This document shows, in pieces, positions 58,309 to 64,000 of a stretch of DNA of 64,000 bases. The stretch spans positions 62,001-126,000 of the forward strand of contig JADFAM010000009.1 of NCBI GenBank assembly GCA_015665265.1, read 5' to 3'. The stretch is from Flavobacterium sp. GTDB lineage: Bacteria > Bacteroidota > Bacteroidia > Flavobacteriales > Flavobacteriaceae. The stretch's first letter is position 1, and each line of letters opens with the position of its first letter. The notes under the pieces are model-generated. The model saw nothing but the letters and a program-made list of their open reading frames with translations, searched no databases and was not told the DNA's origin. Made by a program: the position numbers and the translations under genes.

Positions 58309-58342
58309 TTGGGCATATATATAAAAAAACTTTCTACTTTTG
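58309..58342 (+). promoter_or_regulatory. Promoter of topA
   Basis: TTG at 58309-58311, 23 bases, then TACTTTTG at 58335-58342. The spacing is at the long limit. The leader would be about 48 bases. Confidence 0.5.
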
Positions 58343-58396: not shown

Positions 58397-60895
58397 ATGG
58401 CAAAAAATTTAGTAATTGTAGAATCACCAGCAAAGGCAAAAACTATTGAAAAATTTTTAGGAAAAGATTTTCAAGTTGAATCAAGTTATGGCCATATTGC
58501 AGATTTACCATCTAAAGAATTAGGTATAGATGTAGATGGAGATTTCAGACCAAAATATATTATATCAGAAGATAAAAAACCTGTAGTAAAAAAATTAAAG
58601 TCACTTGCAAAAAAAGCTGATATGGTTTGGTTGGCAAGTGATGAAGATAGAGAGGGAGAAGCTATTGCATGGCACTTAAAAGAACAATTAAATCTCGAAG
58701 ATAGTAACACCAAACGTATTGTATTTCACGAAATAACAAAAAAAGCAATTTTAAAAGCTGTTGAAAATCCAAGGGATATTGATTACAACATGGTTAATGC
58801 TCAGCAAGCTAGAAGAGTATTAGACAGATTGGTGGGATATGAATTATCTCCTGTTTTATGGAGAAAGGTTAAAGGAGGTCTTTCTGCTGGTAGAGTACAA
58901 TCAGTTGCAGTTAGATTAATTGTCGAAAAAGAAAGAAGTATTCAAAACTTTAAAGCAGATACACACTACAAAGTGGTTGCACAATTTTCTAATTCTCAAG
59001 GTAAATCTTTTAAGGCTGCAATACCTAAAAACTTTAACTCAAAAAATGATGCAGAGGATTTCTTGAAATCTTGTTCTGACGCAATTTTTTCAATTTCAGA
59101 ATTGTCAAAAAAGCCAGCCAAAAAATCGCCTGCAGCACCCTTTACTACCTCAACTCTCCAACAAGAAGCTTCAAGAAAACTTGGGTATCCTGTTGGTAAA
59201 ACAATGCAAGTTGCTCAGCGACTTTATGAGGCAGGATTAATCACATACATGAGAACTGATAGTGTAAATTTATCTGTTGATGCTAGAAATGATGCTGAAA
59301 AGGAAATATCAGATTTTTATGGTAATGAGTATAGTAAACAACGAGTTTTTAAGTCTAAATCAAAAGGTGCACAGGAGGCTCATGAAGCTATTAGACCAAC
59401 TAATTTAAAAATTCACTCTGTAGATAAAGAATATGACCAAAACAGGTTATATGATTTGATTTGGAAAAGAACCATTGCCTCACAAATGAGTGATGCGGAA
59501 TTAGAGCGAACCAATGTTAAAATACAGAATTCAAAAAATGAAAAAATCTTTACAGCTAATGGTGAGATGATAAAATTTGATGGATTTTTAAAAGTGTATC
59601 TAGAAGGGAACGATAATGAAGACGAAGAAAAAGCAGGTATGCTACCTAACTTGTCTAAAGGAGATCAGATAGATTATAACTTTATTAATGCAACTCAAAG
59701 ATTTACGAGTCCACCATATAGATTTACTGAAGCTTCCTTGGTTAAACAATTAGAAGAATTAGGAATTGGTAGGCCATCTACCTACGCTCCAACAATCTCT
59801 ACAGTGCAAAGAAGAGGGTACGTAGAAAAAGGTCAAAACGAAGGTGTTGAAAGGCCTTTCGAGCAATTAATTTTAACAAATGGTACTATAAAAACTCAAA
59901 ATTTAGTAGAGAAAACAGGTTCAGATAAAAATAAATTGATACCTACAGATATCGGGAATATAGTTAATGATTTTTTAGTAACTAATTTTTCTAATATTTT
60001 AGATTTTGGTTTTACAGCCAAAGTTGAGTCTTCTTTTGATGATATTTCTGAAGGAGATGAAAATTGGACTAAAATGATTAAAGGGTTTTACTCTAAATTT
60101 CATGATAATGTTGAAGACGTCAAAGAGAATGCAGAAAGGGAAAGTGGAGAGCGTATTTTAGGGAATCATCCTGAGTCTGGAAAGACGGTTTTAGTTCGAT
60201 TAGGAAAATTTGGACCAATTGCACAAATTGGTGCACCTGAGGATGAAACAAAACAATTTGCGAGTTTAAACAAAGATCAAAATCTGGGAACTATTTCCCT
60301 AGAAGAAGCGCTAGAGTTATTTTTACTACCCAAAACAATTGGAACATTCGAAAATAATGAAGTGATTGTTGCTAATGGAAGATTTGGACCTTACATCCGT
60401 TTTGATGGTATGTTTGTTTCATTAGACAAAGGAGAGAATCCTATGTCTGTAGATCTAGAGAGAGCTCAGGTTTTAATAGAAGCCAAACGAAAAGCAGATG
60501 CTCCTGTTGGTCACTATCAAGATCTTCCAATACAAAAGGGTGTGGGGAGATTTGGACCATTTCTCAAGTGGAATTCTATGTTTATTAATGTAAATAAAAG
60601 ATATGATTTTGAAAACCTTACTTCATCAGACATGAATGAATTGATAGAAGAAAAAATTCAAAAAGAGAAAGATAAATTAATCCATGATTGGAAAGATGTT
60701 GGAATTCGGGTAGAAAAAGCTCGATGGGGAAGATTTCATATTTTAAAAGGAAAAATTAAGATAGAACTTCCCAAAACCACAGATATCGATAAAATTACAA
60801 AAGAAGAAGCTGTTAAGATGATAGAGGCAAAGACTCCGAAAAGAAAGACAGCAAAAAAATCCTCTCCTAAGAAAAAAACAATAAAAAAGAAATAA
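58397..60895 (+). CDS. topA: DNA topoisomerase I
   Basis: Type IA topoisomerase relaxing negative supercoils. The ORF-track start is a TTG; the ATG at 58397 gives MAKNLVIVESPAKAKT and 832 residues. The TOPRIM domain holds ASDEDREGEAIAWHLK, and the active-site tyrosine is Tyr284 in ITYMRTDSVNLS. The C-terminal third has repeated topoisomerase-C modules (LGKFGPIAQIG, NGRFGPYIRF, VGRFGPFLKW) and ends in a lysine-rich tail. There are no cysteine zinc fingers, unlike E. coli TopA. Confidence 0.97.
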   Translation: MAKNLVIVESPAKAKTIEKFLGKDFQVESSYGHIADLPSKELGIDVDGDFRPKYIISEDKKPVVKKLKSLAKKADMVWLASDEDREGEAIAWHLKEQLNLEDSNTKRIVFHEITKKAILKAVENPRDIDYNMVNAQQARRVLDRLVGYELSPVLWRKVKGGLSAGRVQSVAVRLIVEKERSIQNFKADTHYKVVAQFSNSQGKSFKAAIPKNFNSKNDAEDFLKSCSDAIFSISELSKKPAKKSPAAPFTTSTLQQEASRKLGYPVGKTMQVAQRLYEAGLITYMRTDSVNLSVDARNDAEKEISDFYGNEYSKQRVFKSKSKGAQEAHEAIRPTNLKIHSVDKEYDQNRLYDLIWKRTIASQMSDAELERTNVKIQNSKNEKIFTANGEMIKFDGFLKVYLEGNDNEDEEKAGMLPNLSKGDQIDYNFINATQRFTSPPYRFTEASLVKQLEELGIGRPSTYAPTISTVQRRGYVEKGQNEGVERPFEQLILTNGTIKTQNLVEKTGSDKNKLIPTDIGNIVNDFLVTNFSNILDFGFTAKVESSFDDISEGDENWTKMIKGFYSKFHDNVEDVKENAERESGERILGNHPESGKTVLVRLGKFGPIAQIGAPEDETKQFASLNKDQNLGTISLEEALELFLLPKTIGTFENNEVIVANGRFGPYIRFDGMFVSLDKGENPMSVDLERAQVLIEAKRKADAPVGHYQDLPIQKGVGRFGPFLKWNSMFINVNKRYDFENLTSSDMNELIEEKIQKEKDKLIHDWKDVGIRVEKARWGRFHILKGKIKIELPKTTDIDKITKEEAVKMIEAKTPKRKTAKKSSPKKKTIKKK

Positions 60896-60927: not shown

Positions 60928-62088
60928 ATGAACATTGATTTTTTAACTCCTGTAAAAGATTCTGTTGTAGCACACTCAATCCTGTTGCCTTCAACCTCTC
61001 TAGGTGCAAATATGCGAATACATACTCAAACAGACGGTTTTCCGGACTTAGAGGGAGTTAATATCGCAATGTTTGGTATTGAGGAGGATAGAAATACTGA
61101 AAATAATTTTGGAAGTGGTAAAGATCTTCATCATATCAGAAGACACCTATACCAATTATATCCTGGTAATTGGAATACAACTATTGCAGACATTGGCAAC
61201 ATTAAAAAAGGTGAGTTAACTTCAGATTCTCACTTTGCAATCAAAGAAGTAGTAATAAGCCTCTTGAAAATGAATATCTTACCCATTATATTAGGTGGAG
61301 GTCAAGATGCTACATTCTCTAACTACAAAGCCTACGATAAATTAGAACAAACTGTAAATTTAGTTACTGTAGATAACATGTTTGATCTAGGGAATATAGA
61401 TGATGAATTATCTTCAAAATCATATCTCAGTAAAATAATTATGGAAGTTCCAAGCAATCTATTTAACTACAGTAACATTGGATACCAAACGTATTTTAAT
61501 TCTCAAGATGAAATTAATTTAATTCAAGGCTTAAATTTTGATGCATATCGATTAGGAGAAGTAAAAAATCTAGAGATAGTTGAGCCTGTTTTTAGAGATG
61601 CAGATATTGTAAGTATAGATATTGGAGCAGTTAGACAGAGTGATGCCCCAGCTAATAACAATTTATCTCCTAATGGTTTTTATGGAGAAGAAATTTGCGC
61701 TATATCTAGATATGCGGGTATAAGTGATAAAGTATCATCATTTGGGATATATGAATACAATTCTAGACACGACTCTAATTATCAAACAGCTCATTTAATT
61801 GCTCAAATGATTTGGTATTTCATTGAAGGTGTAAATTATAGGGCGAAAGATTACCCATATTGCACCAAAGAAGACTACCAAAAATTTACTGTTTTATTAG
61901 AAAACGACGATCCAATAAATTTTTACAAGAGTAATAAATCGGATAGGTGGTGGATGGAAATAAATTTAATTAAAGATAATAAATATAAAAGACATGCGTT
62001 AATACCATGTACTTATGAGGACTACCTGGAAACAACAAAGCAACTAATACCAAATAGGTGGTTTAAAGCACAAAGAAAAATGCTTTAA
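60928..62088 (+). CDS. Arginase/formimidoylglutamase-fold protein with degenerate metal site
   Basis: A 386-residue cytoplasmic protein of the ureohydrolase fold. Motifs are recognisable but altered. GGGQDATF replaces GG[DG]H (Gln126 for His), VDNMFD replaces DAHxD (Met151 for His), and SIDIGAVRQSDAP replaces SxDxDxxDP (Gly233 for Asp). Asp149, Asp153 and Asp231 remain. Three of six Mn ligands are lost, so hydrolase activity is unlikely. It follows topA by 32 bases and precedes gldK, so a structural or regulatory role near type IX secretion is possible. Similar genes are often labelled formimidoylglutamase. Confidence 0.85.
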   Translation: MNIDFLTPVKDSVVAHSILLPSTSLGANMRIHTQTDGFPDLEGVNIAMFGIEEDRNTENNFGSGKDLHHIRRHLYQLYPGNWNTTIADIGNIKKGELTSDSHFAIKEVVISLLKMNILPIILGGGQDATFSNYKAYDKLEQTVNLVTVDNMFDLGNIDDELSSKSYLSKIIMEVPSNLFNYSNIGYQTYFNSQDEINLIQGLNFDAYRLGEVKNLEIVEPVFRDADIVSIDIGAVRQSDAPANNNLSPNGFYGEEICAISRYAGISDKVSSFGIYEYNSRHDSNYQTAHLIAQMIWYFIEGVNYRAKDYPYCTKEDYQKFTVLLENDDPINFYKSNKSDRWWMEINLIKDNKYKRHALIPCTYEDYLETTKQLIPNRWFKAQRKML

Positions 62089-62189: not shown

Positions 62190-63572
62190 ATGAAGAAAGC
62201 AATATTGTATATATTTTTGATAACCATGATGTATGGATGCGGTTCAAATGATCGTGGTGAGTTAGTAGGAGTTAAGTCTAAGTACAAATGGTTTAGTGAG
62301 AAACCTTTTGGAATGGTTTCTATTCCAGCGGGTTCGTTTACAATGGGGAGACAGGATGAAGATTTAACGGGGACAATGAATGCACCTCCAAGAACCGTAA
62401 GTGTTAGTAAGTTTTTCATGGATGAGACGGAGATATCAAATTCAGAATATAAGCAATTTGTAGAATGGGTTAAAGATTCTATTGTTAGAACAGAACTTGC
62501 ATTAATGGCAGATTTTGCATCAGGAGGTAGTTTCACCGATACTAATGGTCAACTAATTACTGGAGGGATATATGATTATTCTTTTGCAGGATCAGATACA
62601 ACAAGTCAAACAGCTTATCAAAAATATATGTTTGAGAATTATTACGAACTAGCTGTGGATTTAAATTCTGCCAAACCACTTAATAAAGGAATCGATATTA
62701 TTTGGAATACTAGTGAGTATCCAGATGTATATTATGCTGAAGCTATGGATTCATTGTATATAAAAGAAAGTGAAGCTAGGGATGGGGTGAGAACGTTTAA
62801 CAATAAACTTCTCAAATATTCTTATTCATGGTTTGATAAAAATACTGCCATGAAAAACTCAAGTAGTAGAAGAGACTTTCTAGTTAAAGAAGTAGTTAAT
62901 GTATATCCAGACACAACAGTTTGGGTAAAAGACTTTAATTATTCTTATAATGACCCAATGCATCTTGATTATTTTTTCCACCCAGCTTATCAAGATTATC
63001 CAGTTGTTGGAGTAAATTGGCTTCAAGCTCAAGCTTTTTGTAATTGGAGAACAAAAAATAAAAATGATAGAATGCGAGGCAATAAAAACTTTGTAAAAAT
63101 TCCAAGTTTTAGATTGCCTAGTGAAGCAGAATGGGAGTATGCTGCAAGAGGAGGACTAGAATTTTCTAAGTATCCATGGGGTGGCCCAAATATAACCAGT
63201 GATAGAGGGTGTTTTTTAGCTAATTTTAAGCCAGTTAGAGGTAACTATGCAGTAGACGGAGCGCTATATACGGTTGAAGTTCAGTCATTCAACGCTAACG
63301 ATTATGGCTTATATAACATGTCTGGAAATGTTTCCGAATGGACAGCTTCCTCATTTAATAATAGTTCTTATTACATGGGCTCAACTATTAATACAAGTGT
63401 TCAAGATAGATATAATAAAAGAAAAGTAATCAGAGGTGGCTCATGGAAAGATGTTGCCTACTTTTTAGAAGTAGGTACTAGAGATTTTGAATATGCAGAC
63501 ACCGCAAGAAGTTATATCGGTTTTAGAACTGTTCAATCTTCAGTAGGACCAAAAACAAATACCAATTATTAA
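62190..63572 (+). CDS. gldK: Type IX secretion/gliding lipoprotein GldK
   Basis: GldK (PorK) forms, with GldN, the periplasmic ring of the type IX secretion system attached to the outer membrane. The 460-residue product has a lipoprotein signal (ITMMYGCGSND, Cys17) and a formylglycine-generating-enzyme-like fold. That fold starts FGMVSIPAGSFTMGRQDED, contains FFMDETEISNSEYKQF and VGVNWLQAQAFCNWR, and ends VIRGGSWKDVAYFLEVGTRDF, YIGFRTV. A large insert lies around residues 100-260. It is followed by gldL after 33 bases. Confidence 0.95.
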   Translation: MKKAILYIFLITMMYGCGSNDRGELVGVKSKYKWFSEKPFGMVSIPAGSFTMGRQDEDLTGTMNAPPRTVSVSKFFMDETEISNSEYKQFVEWVKDSIVRTELALMADFASGGSFTDTNGQLITGGIYDYSFAGSDTTSQTAYQKYMFENYYELAVDLNSAKPLNKGIDIIWNTSEYPDVYYAEAMDSLYIKESEARDGVRTFNNKLLKYSYSWFDKNTAMKNSSSRRDFLVKEVVNVYPDTTVWVKDFNYSYNDPMHLDYFFHPAYQDYPVVGVNWLQAQAFCNWRTKNKNDRMRGNKNFVKIPSFRLPSEAEWEYAARGGLEFSKYPWGGPNITSDRGCFLANFKPVRGNYAVDGALYTVEVQSFNANDYGLYNMSGNVSEWTASSFNNSSYYMGSTINTSVQDRYNKRKVIRGGSWKDVAYFLEVGTRDFEYADTARSYIGFRTVQSSVGPKTNTNY

Positions 63573-63605: not shown

Positions 63606-64000
63606 ATGGCACAATCAAAATCAACTAAGAAAATATTCAATATGGCCTACGGTATCGGAGCCGCGATAGTAATAGTAGGCGCATTATTTAAAATCCAACA
63701 TTGGCCTTACGGATCTTTAATCTTAACAATCGGTATGATAGTAGAAGCAATTGTGTTTTTTATATCAGCTTTTGATGCAGTTGAAGATGATTTGGATTGG
63801 ACTAAGGTATATCCAGAACTAGGTGACGCTGTCGGAGAAGGAACAGGCGTAAACGGGATGTTATCTCAAAAATTAGATAATTTATTAAAGGAAGCTCAAG
63901 TTGATACTGAGCTTATGACGAATCTTGGAAATAGTATTAAAAGTTTTCATACCGCTGCAGAAGGTTTGAGTGTTGCATCCGAATCAATTTCTTCAACTGT
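63606..64000 (+). CDS. gldL: Type IX secretion motor protein GldL (3' end cut by window edge)
   Basis: Not in the ORF track; translated from the ATG at 63606, it gives 131 residues before the window ends. Two inner-membrane helices are clear: AYGIGAAIVIVGALFKIQHW (about 14-33) and SLILTIGMIVEAIVFFISAF (about 37-56). Charged or polar residues Lys29, His32 and Glu47 lie in or near the helices, as expected of the proton-driven GldLM motor. A helical cytoplasmic region then begins (SQKLDNLLKEAQVDTELMTNLG). gldM and gldN are expected beyond the edge. Confidence 0.95.
   Translation, partial: MAQSKSTKKIFNMAYGIGAAIVIVGALFKIQHWPYGSLILTIGMIVEAIVFFISAFDAVEDDLDWTKVYPELGDAVGEGTGVNGMLSQKLDNLLKEAQVDTELMTNLGNSIKSFHTAAEGLSVASESISST

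Follow-up and report, generated by a model that had tools for sequence, protein, structure and literature searches.

A putative pseudo-ureohydrolase family encoded beside the type IX secretion core genes across a class of Bacteroidota

In much of the Bacteroidota, gliding and the export of proteins are driven by the type IX secretion system (T9SS), about whose cytoplasmic side little is known. In P. gingivalis, PGN_1678, listed beside porP as a 'hypothetical protein', was up 3.4-fold together with porPKLMN in a mutant lacking ppGpp (PMC6994654). In metformin hydrolase the metal-free subunit MetCb is required by the active subunit MetCa, and further members of the arginase family that lack a binuclear centre have been mentioned for both eukaryotes and prokaryotes (PMC11271267). 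Arginase-family pseudoenzymes as such are already known. Searches of open-licence papers found none that links an arginase-family or formimidoylglutamase protein to gldK or to the T9SS, and nothing relevant on topA with gldK or on Fjoh_1852; an ancient T9SS-linked family with a C-terminal domain of its own appears undescribed so far. Here we analysed a member of such a family, referred to as the T family, encoded in a 64,000-nucleotide stretch of Flavobacterium sp. DNA (the window).

The gene under study encodes a protein of 386 aa with an ATG start (60928..62088, + strand; all features below lie on the same strand). It lies 32 nt downstream of topA, the gene for DNA topoisomerase I and the first in the block (58397..60895, with a start at either TTG 58391 or ATG 58397), and 101 nt upstream of gldK, which encodes the T9SS ring lipoprotein (62190..63572) and matched NCBIfam TIGR03525 with 560 bits against a cutoff of 350. 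The gene for the motor protein GldL (63606..63998; NCBIfam TIGR03513) is cut by the window end; in the genome it encodes 204 aa in full and is followed, just past the window, by GldM- and GldN-sized frames. The original prediction had placed the gene directly upstream of gldK-gldL, and this was confirmed by the 101-nt gap and the matches of both neighbours to their models. A script scan for the Bacteroidetes-type promoter pattern TTG-N-TAnnTTTG detected a promoter-like site upstream of topA (58309..58342) and no match in the two gaps that separate the subject gene from topA and from gldK; since the pattern occurred 13 times on the + strand of the window, this site is weak evidence.

The arginase fold claimed for the protein was borne out by both profile and structure searches. 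Residues 45-298 matched Pfam Arginase (PF00491) with 60.9 bits against a cutoff of 22. An AlphaFold2 model, built from 47 sequences taken from the window and the genome contigs, reached a pLDDT of 89.2 and a pTM of 0.91, and its top fold matches in the PDB were the formimidoylglutamases 3m1r from B. subtilis and 4mxr from T. cruzi (TM-score on target 0.75-0.82), followed by metformin hydrolases, all of them ureohydrolases. By descent the protein is thus a member of the arginase/ureohydrolase superfamily. A cytoplasmic location is likely, because the longest hydrophobic stretch lies inside the fold core and the N-terminus, by script and by inspection, is unlike a signal peptide.

Orthologues were gathered from a phylum sample, an even class sample and a set of named genomes, and 209 of them were compared. 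The T family was present in 279/296 sampled genomes of the class; the nearest named relatives of the subject protein came from Polaribacter and Tenacibaculum, along with an uncultured 'Flavobacterium' at 85% identity. Every T-family member (209/209) carried a C-terminal extension of about 75 aa (residues 310-384) that was found in none of 20 canonical relatives. In the subject protein this diagnostic region spans residues 304-386 (61837..62085). Its residues R340-W341-W342, P360-C361, Y366, P375 and W378 are among the most conserved of the family, and it was modelled at a pLDDT of 65-91 per ten-residue block. In a tree of 88 proteins one branch with an SH-aLRT of 100 split the T family from the canonical enzymes, and the family is best explained as descending from a formimidoylglutamase/arginase-type ancestor. 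Comparison with the nearest relative gave a dN of ~0.08 and a dS of ~1.7, the latter near saturation, with a dN/dS of ~0.05, values that place the gene under strong purifying selection. In this genome pair the subject protein was about as conserved as TopA (85% and 86% identity) and better conserved than GldK (77%). A decaying pseudogene was ruled out by the low dN/dS (~0.05) and by frames that remain open throughout the class.

The order topA-gene-gldK was found in 31/31 sampled Flavobacteriaceae genomes. A first sample showed mostly no nearby gldK outside this family, and adjacency confined to close relatives was entertained as an explanation until the even class sample reversed that result. 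There, positions were listed for both the gene and gldL in 93 genomes; in 68 of these, from 21/26 families, the two shared a strand and the gene preceded gldL by 1.6-4.3 kb, and the same spacing was seen in 52/90 of a further order sample. In 60 fetched loci representing 54 non-Flavobacteriaceae families, the order gene-porP-gldK occurred in 33, from 30 families, with topA in front in nearly all of them. The adjacency to gldK is therefore conserved in about 30 families beyond the Flavobacteriaceae, so that the original prediction is not refuted on the point of adjacency that it had itself named, and the T-family gene shares its locus with core T9SS genes in diverse lineages. The ancestral block was likely topA-gene-porP-gldK-gldL, from which the intervening porP would have been lost in Flavobacteriaceae. 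Families without the gene-gldK linkage include f3, f4, f8, f9, f80 and f88. As a side observation, three very divergent orthologues from family f5 (L072, L073, L075) have murF, a gldJ-like gene and a gene of the OmpA family close by, two of them with porP before the gldJ-like gene: another T9SS/gliding neighbourhood, arrived at separately.

The distribution of the gene follows that of the T9SS only in part. In the class sample GldL was detected in 289 of 296 genomes, and the T family was found in 277 of these (12/289 lacked it) and in two of the seven GldL-negative genomes (5/7 lacked it). In 129 genomes from the order of G230 it was found in 91/120 GldL-positive genomes, one of the 91 matches (G606) being weak, and in 0/9 GldL-negative ones; the remaining 29/120 GldL-positive genomes were without it. 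Fisher tests gave p ~7e-6 for the class and ~8e-6 for the order of G230, values that ignore the relatedness of the genomes. G341 and G471 carried a T-family gene with no GldL detected and no GldK match above the cutoff. The gene is thus mostly restricted to T9SS genomes and is not required by every one of them. In T9SS genomes seemingly without it, a divergent copy before porP-gldK was sought and not found, and other genes occupied that place. Two loci of family f10, from which the T-family gene is absent (L232, L233), have genes for a DUF4271 protein and HemD (uroporphyrinogen-III synthase) directly before porP-gldK-gldL. Because some T9SS genomes lack the gene, its product would be an accessory rather than an indispensable core part; because, in addition, topA sits in the same block, the link to the T9SS is genomic, not functional.

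The position of topA bears on the alternative that survives best, namely that the function is unrelated to secretion and that the gene is a housekeeping or topA-linked one held in an ancient, slowly changing block. Against a T9SS role, topA, which is no T9SS gene, shares the block and is the closer neighbour: the median frame-to-frame gap was 4-10 nt between topA and the gene and ~125 nt between the gene and the next one. Furthermore, topA is the sole block neighbour retained beside the T-family gene at four loci (L063, L064, L187, L207), and in several families the gene lies far from gldK. However, three other loci (L186, L209, L045) keep porP-gldK and not topA beside the gene, and all nine GldL-less genomes in the order of G230 are without it. 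Taking both sides together, we regard a function apart from secretion as unlikely, though deserving of some weight.

Alignment with canonical relatives placed Q126, D149, M151, D153, D231 and G233 at the positions of arginase H101, D124, H126, D128, D232 and D234, respectively. Gln126 (61303..61305) stands at the position of the Mn-A ligand H101. The segment D149-N-M151-F-D153 (61372..61386) corresponds to the canonical DAHxD, with the Mn-B His replaced by Met151 (codon 61378-61380) and both Asp kept, and D231-I-G233 (61618..61626) corresponds to the canonical DxD, with the Mn-B Asp replaced by Gly233 (codon 61624-61626) and the bridging Asp kept. All three replacements named by the original prediction accordingly lie at Mn-ligand positions, and the flanking motif residues that it described as kept (D149, D153, D231) are present. 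Its premise that all six ligands are needed carries over to Met151 and Gly233, which are strong losses, but less well to Gln126, since Asn also occurs there in formimidoylglutamases: the alignment shows Asn opposite Gln126 in the B. subtilis enzyme (3m1r), and the T. cruzi formiminoglutamase structure 4myn is of an N114H variant, implying Asn in the wild type. As position 126 is not strictly His in the superfamily, Gln126 alone does not show the protein to be inactive. More informative are Met151 and Gly233, because they remove the ligands at positions 151 and 233, which, following the arginase ligand assignment, we take to be used by Mn-B alone. On this alignment the protein would not belong to the superfamily as a catalyst with the six ligands of a binuclear Mn centre.

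The same pattern extended over the family. The Mn-B His was retained in 4/209 orthologues and the Mn-B Asp in 6/209, and none retained both, whereas the bridging Asp positions D149 and D231 were kept in 193/209 and 197/209, respectively, and the Mn-A Asp position D153 in 181/209. Nearly all had Gln, His or Asn at position 126, 133/209 had Lys or Arg at position 151, and Ser, Asn or Gly was usual at position 233; canonical relatives in the same alignment kept all six ligand positions with almost no exceptions. Thus the loss of the Mn-B ligands, rather than the exact letters Met and Gly, is what is conserved throughout the class, and an ancient, class-wide loss of the binuclear centre is supported by these comparisons. 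The set D149-D/N153-D231 was complete in 36/36 gldK-adjacent loci and in 22/35 other loci, a difference that fits a tighter constraint in the T9SS block, but non-adjacent orthologues are also more divergent overall. A separate observation concerns loci L061-L065 (family f2, 'same order'), where the orthologues encoded near topA are divergent and lack all ligands of the Mn-A set too, and glycosyltransferase genes come next in place of gldK.

The retained half of the site allows for a different enzyme, a mononuclear metal hydrolase or a catalyst of other chemistry, acting through the Mn-A set Q/H126, D149, D153 and D231 in a re-tuned cleft. The near invariance of the Asp trio of this set after loss of the Mn-B pair is what such an enzyme would show, and the residues found at position 126 almost always (Gln, His or Asn) are all possible ligands. 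Lys/Arg151, present in 133/209 orthologues, could nevertheless balance the charge of the Asp cluster with no need for a second metal; the gene is kept at L061-L065 without the entire set; and no known ureohydrolase is documented here to work on Mn-A alone. We consider a mononuclear enzyme doubtful, by a shade more than a function apart from secretion. The earlier proposal that the fold was kept for another purpose gains from the ancient, class-wide Mn-B loss and from the adjacency to gldK, but a retention of the fold only may be too strong a statement, because the Mn-A half of the metal site is kept.

An ordinary active formimidoylglutamase is the reading suggested by the best NCBIfam match, the HutG model TIGR01227, and urocanate hydratase is encoded in the genome, so formimidoylglutamate may be made. 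The match, however, scored 83 bits, well below the HutG equivalog cutoff of 229.15, and the earlier warning against a formimidoylglutamase label was justified in that the label is unearned (83 bits versus 229). The Mn-B ligands are lost and the gene lies outside a hut locus. The genome (98.7% complete) also encodes, besides urocanate hydratase, a separate glutamate formimidoyltransferase-domain protein able to handle formimidoylglutamate, so that histidine could be broken down without a formimidoylglutamase. The congener G029 carries a canonical arginase-family gene in its hut locus (L081), beside urocanate hydratase, and a T-family gene separately before gldK, which argues directly against a metabolic label for the T family. 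On model score, ligands, locus and the canonical gene in the hut locus of the congener, an active HutG was ruled out, and we give this reading almost no credence. In three related genomes (G000:C36, L238; G088:C4, L239; G107:C37, L240) urocanate hydratase was seen without an adjacent canonical hutG; in the subject's own genome (G000:C36) the gene after it encodes a DUF4136 protein. Finally, an inactive partner subunit of a heteromeric ureohydrolase, for which the metal-free MetCb required by active MetCa is a precedent (PMC11271267) and the high rank of metformin hydrolases in the fold search a further point in favour, is extremely improbable and was ruled out for this genome, where PF00491 had a single match and no other arginase-family gene, hence no active paralogue, was found, nor was any arginase-family gene paired with the T-family gene in the examined loci.

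The T-family protein is probably a non-enzymatic helper of the secretion motor and not an enzyme of histidine breakdown. In the reading that we prefer, to which we assign a probability of about 0.5, it is a pseudo-ureohydrolase that lost the Mn-B half of its metal site, gained a C-terminal domain and serves the T9SS as a non-catalytic adaptor or regulator. A formimidoylglutamase/arginase-type ancestor would have lost the Mn-B half, needed for ureohydrolase chemistry, and the T family would have acquired the conserved C-terminal domain. This domain and the old active-site cleft may together bind a partner or a small ligand, the cleft possibly with one bound metal, or with Lys/Arg replacing the second metal. 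Such an accessory adaptor or regulator would most plausibly act where the GldL-GldM motor faces the cytoplasm, or while the machine is being produced. More tentatively, and at somewhat less than even odds, it could be an unrecognised class-wide cytoplasmic T9SS accessory in which the disarmed ureohydrolase and its new C-terminal domain regulate the GldLM motor or take part in its assembly; the old active site might then serve as a sensor for a metal or for a small ligand resembling a guanidino compound or an amino acid. A conserved gene directly before the T9SS core block in about 30 families is a candidate part of the system, one that its likeness to housekeeping metabolism may have caused to be overlooked. 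The T family also presents a clean pseudoenzyme case: of the two halves of a two-metal site precisely one is gone, and what became of the remaining one is amenable to experiment.

Compared with described systems, the subject protein is closest in fold and sequence to HutG (3m1r, 4mxr), with which it has the bridging and Mn-A Asp positions in common, and a residue other than His at the H101 position is found in HutG as well. It differs from HutG in the loss of both Mn-B ligands, in the extra conserved C-terminal domain, in a score far below the HutG cutoff and in being encoded before gldK rather than in a hut operon. Like MetCb/MfmB it is a selectively maintained protein with a ureohydrolase fold and no working metal centre, but the active paralogue of MetCb is encoded beside it, whereas the subject's genome holds no second family member. 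Other arginase-family proteins have likewise lost metal ligands within the arginase fold; to our knowledge the known ones without a binuclear centre are isolated cases, and the T family differs from them in being ancient and class-wide, in carrying an extension of its own and in being encoded among secretion genes. The T-family gene directly precedes the T9SS core block porP-porK/gldK-porL/gldL-porM-porN, in the same orientation, in about 30 families in addition to the Flavobacteriaceae, and in one order sample it is absent from the T9SS-less genomes. Unlike the T9SS core, it does not occur in every T9SS genome, and it is not a named component in the papers searched.
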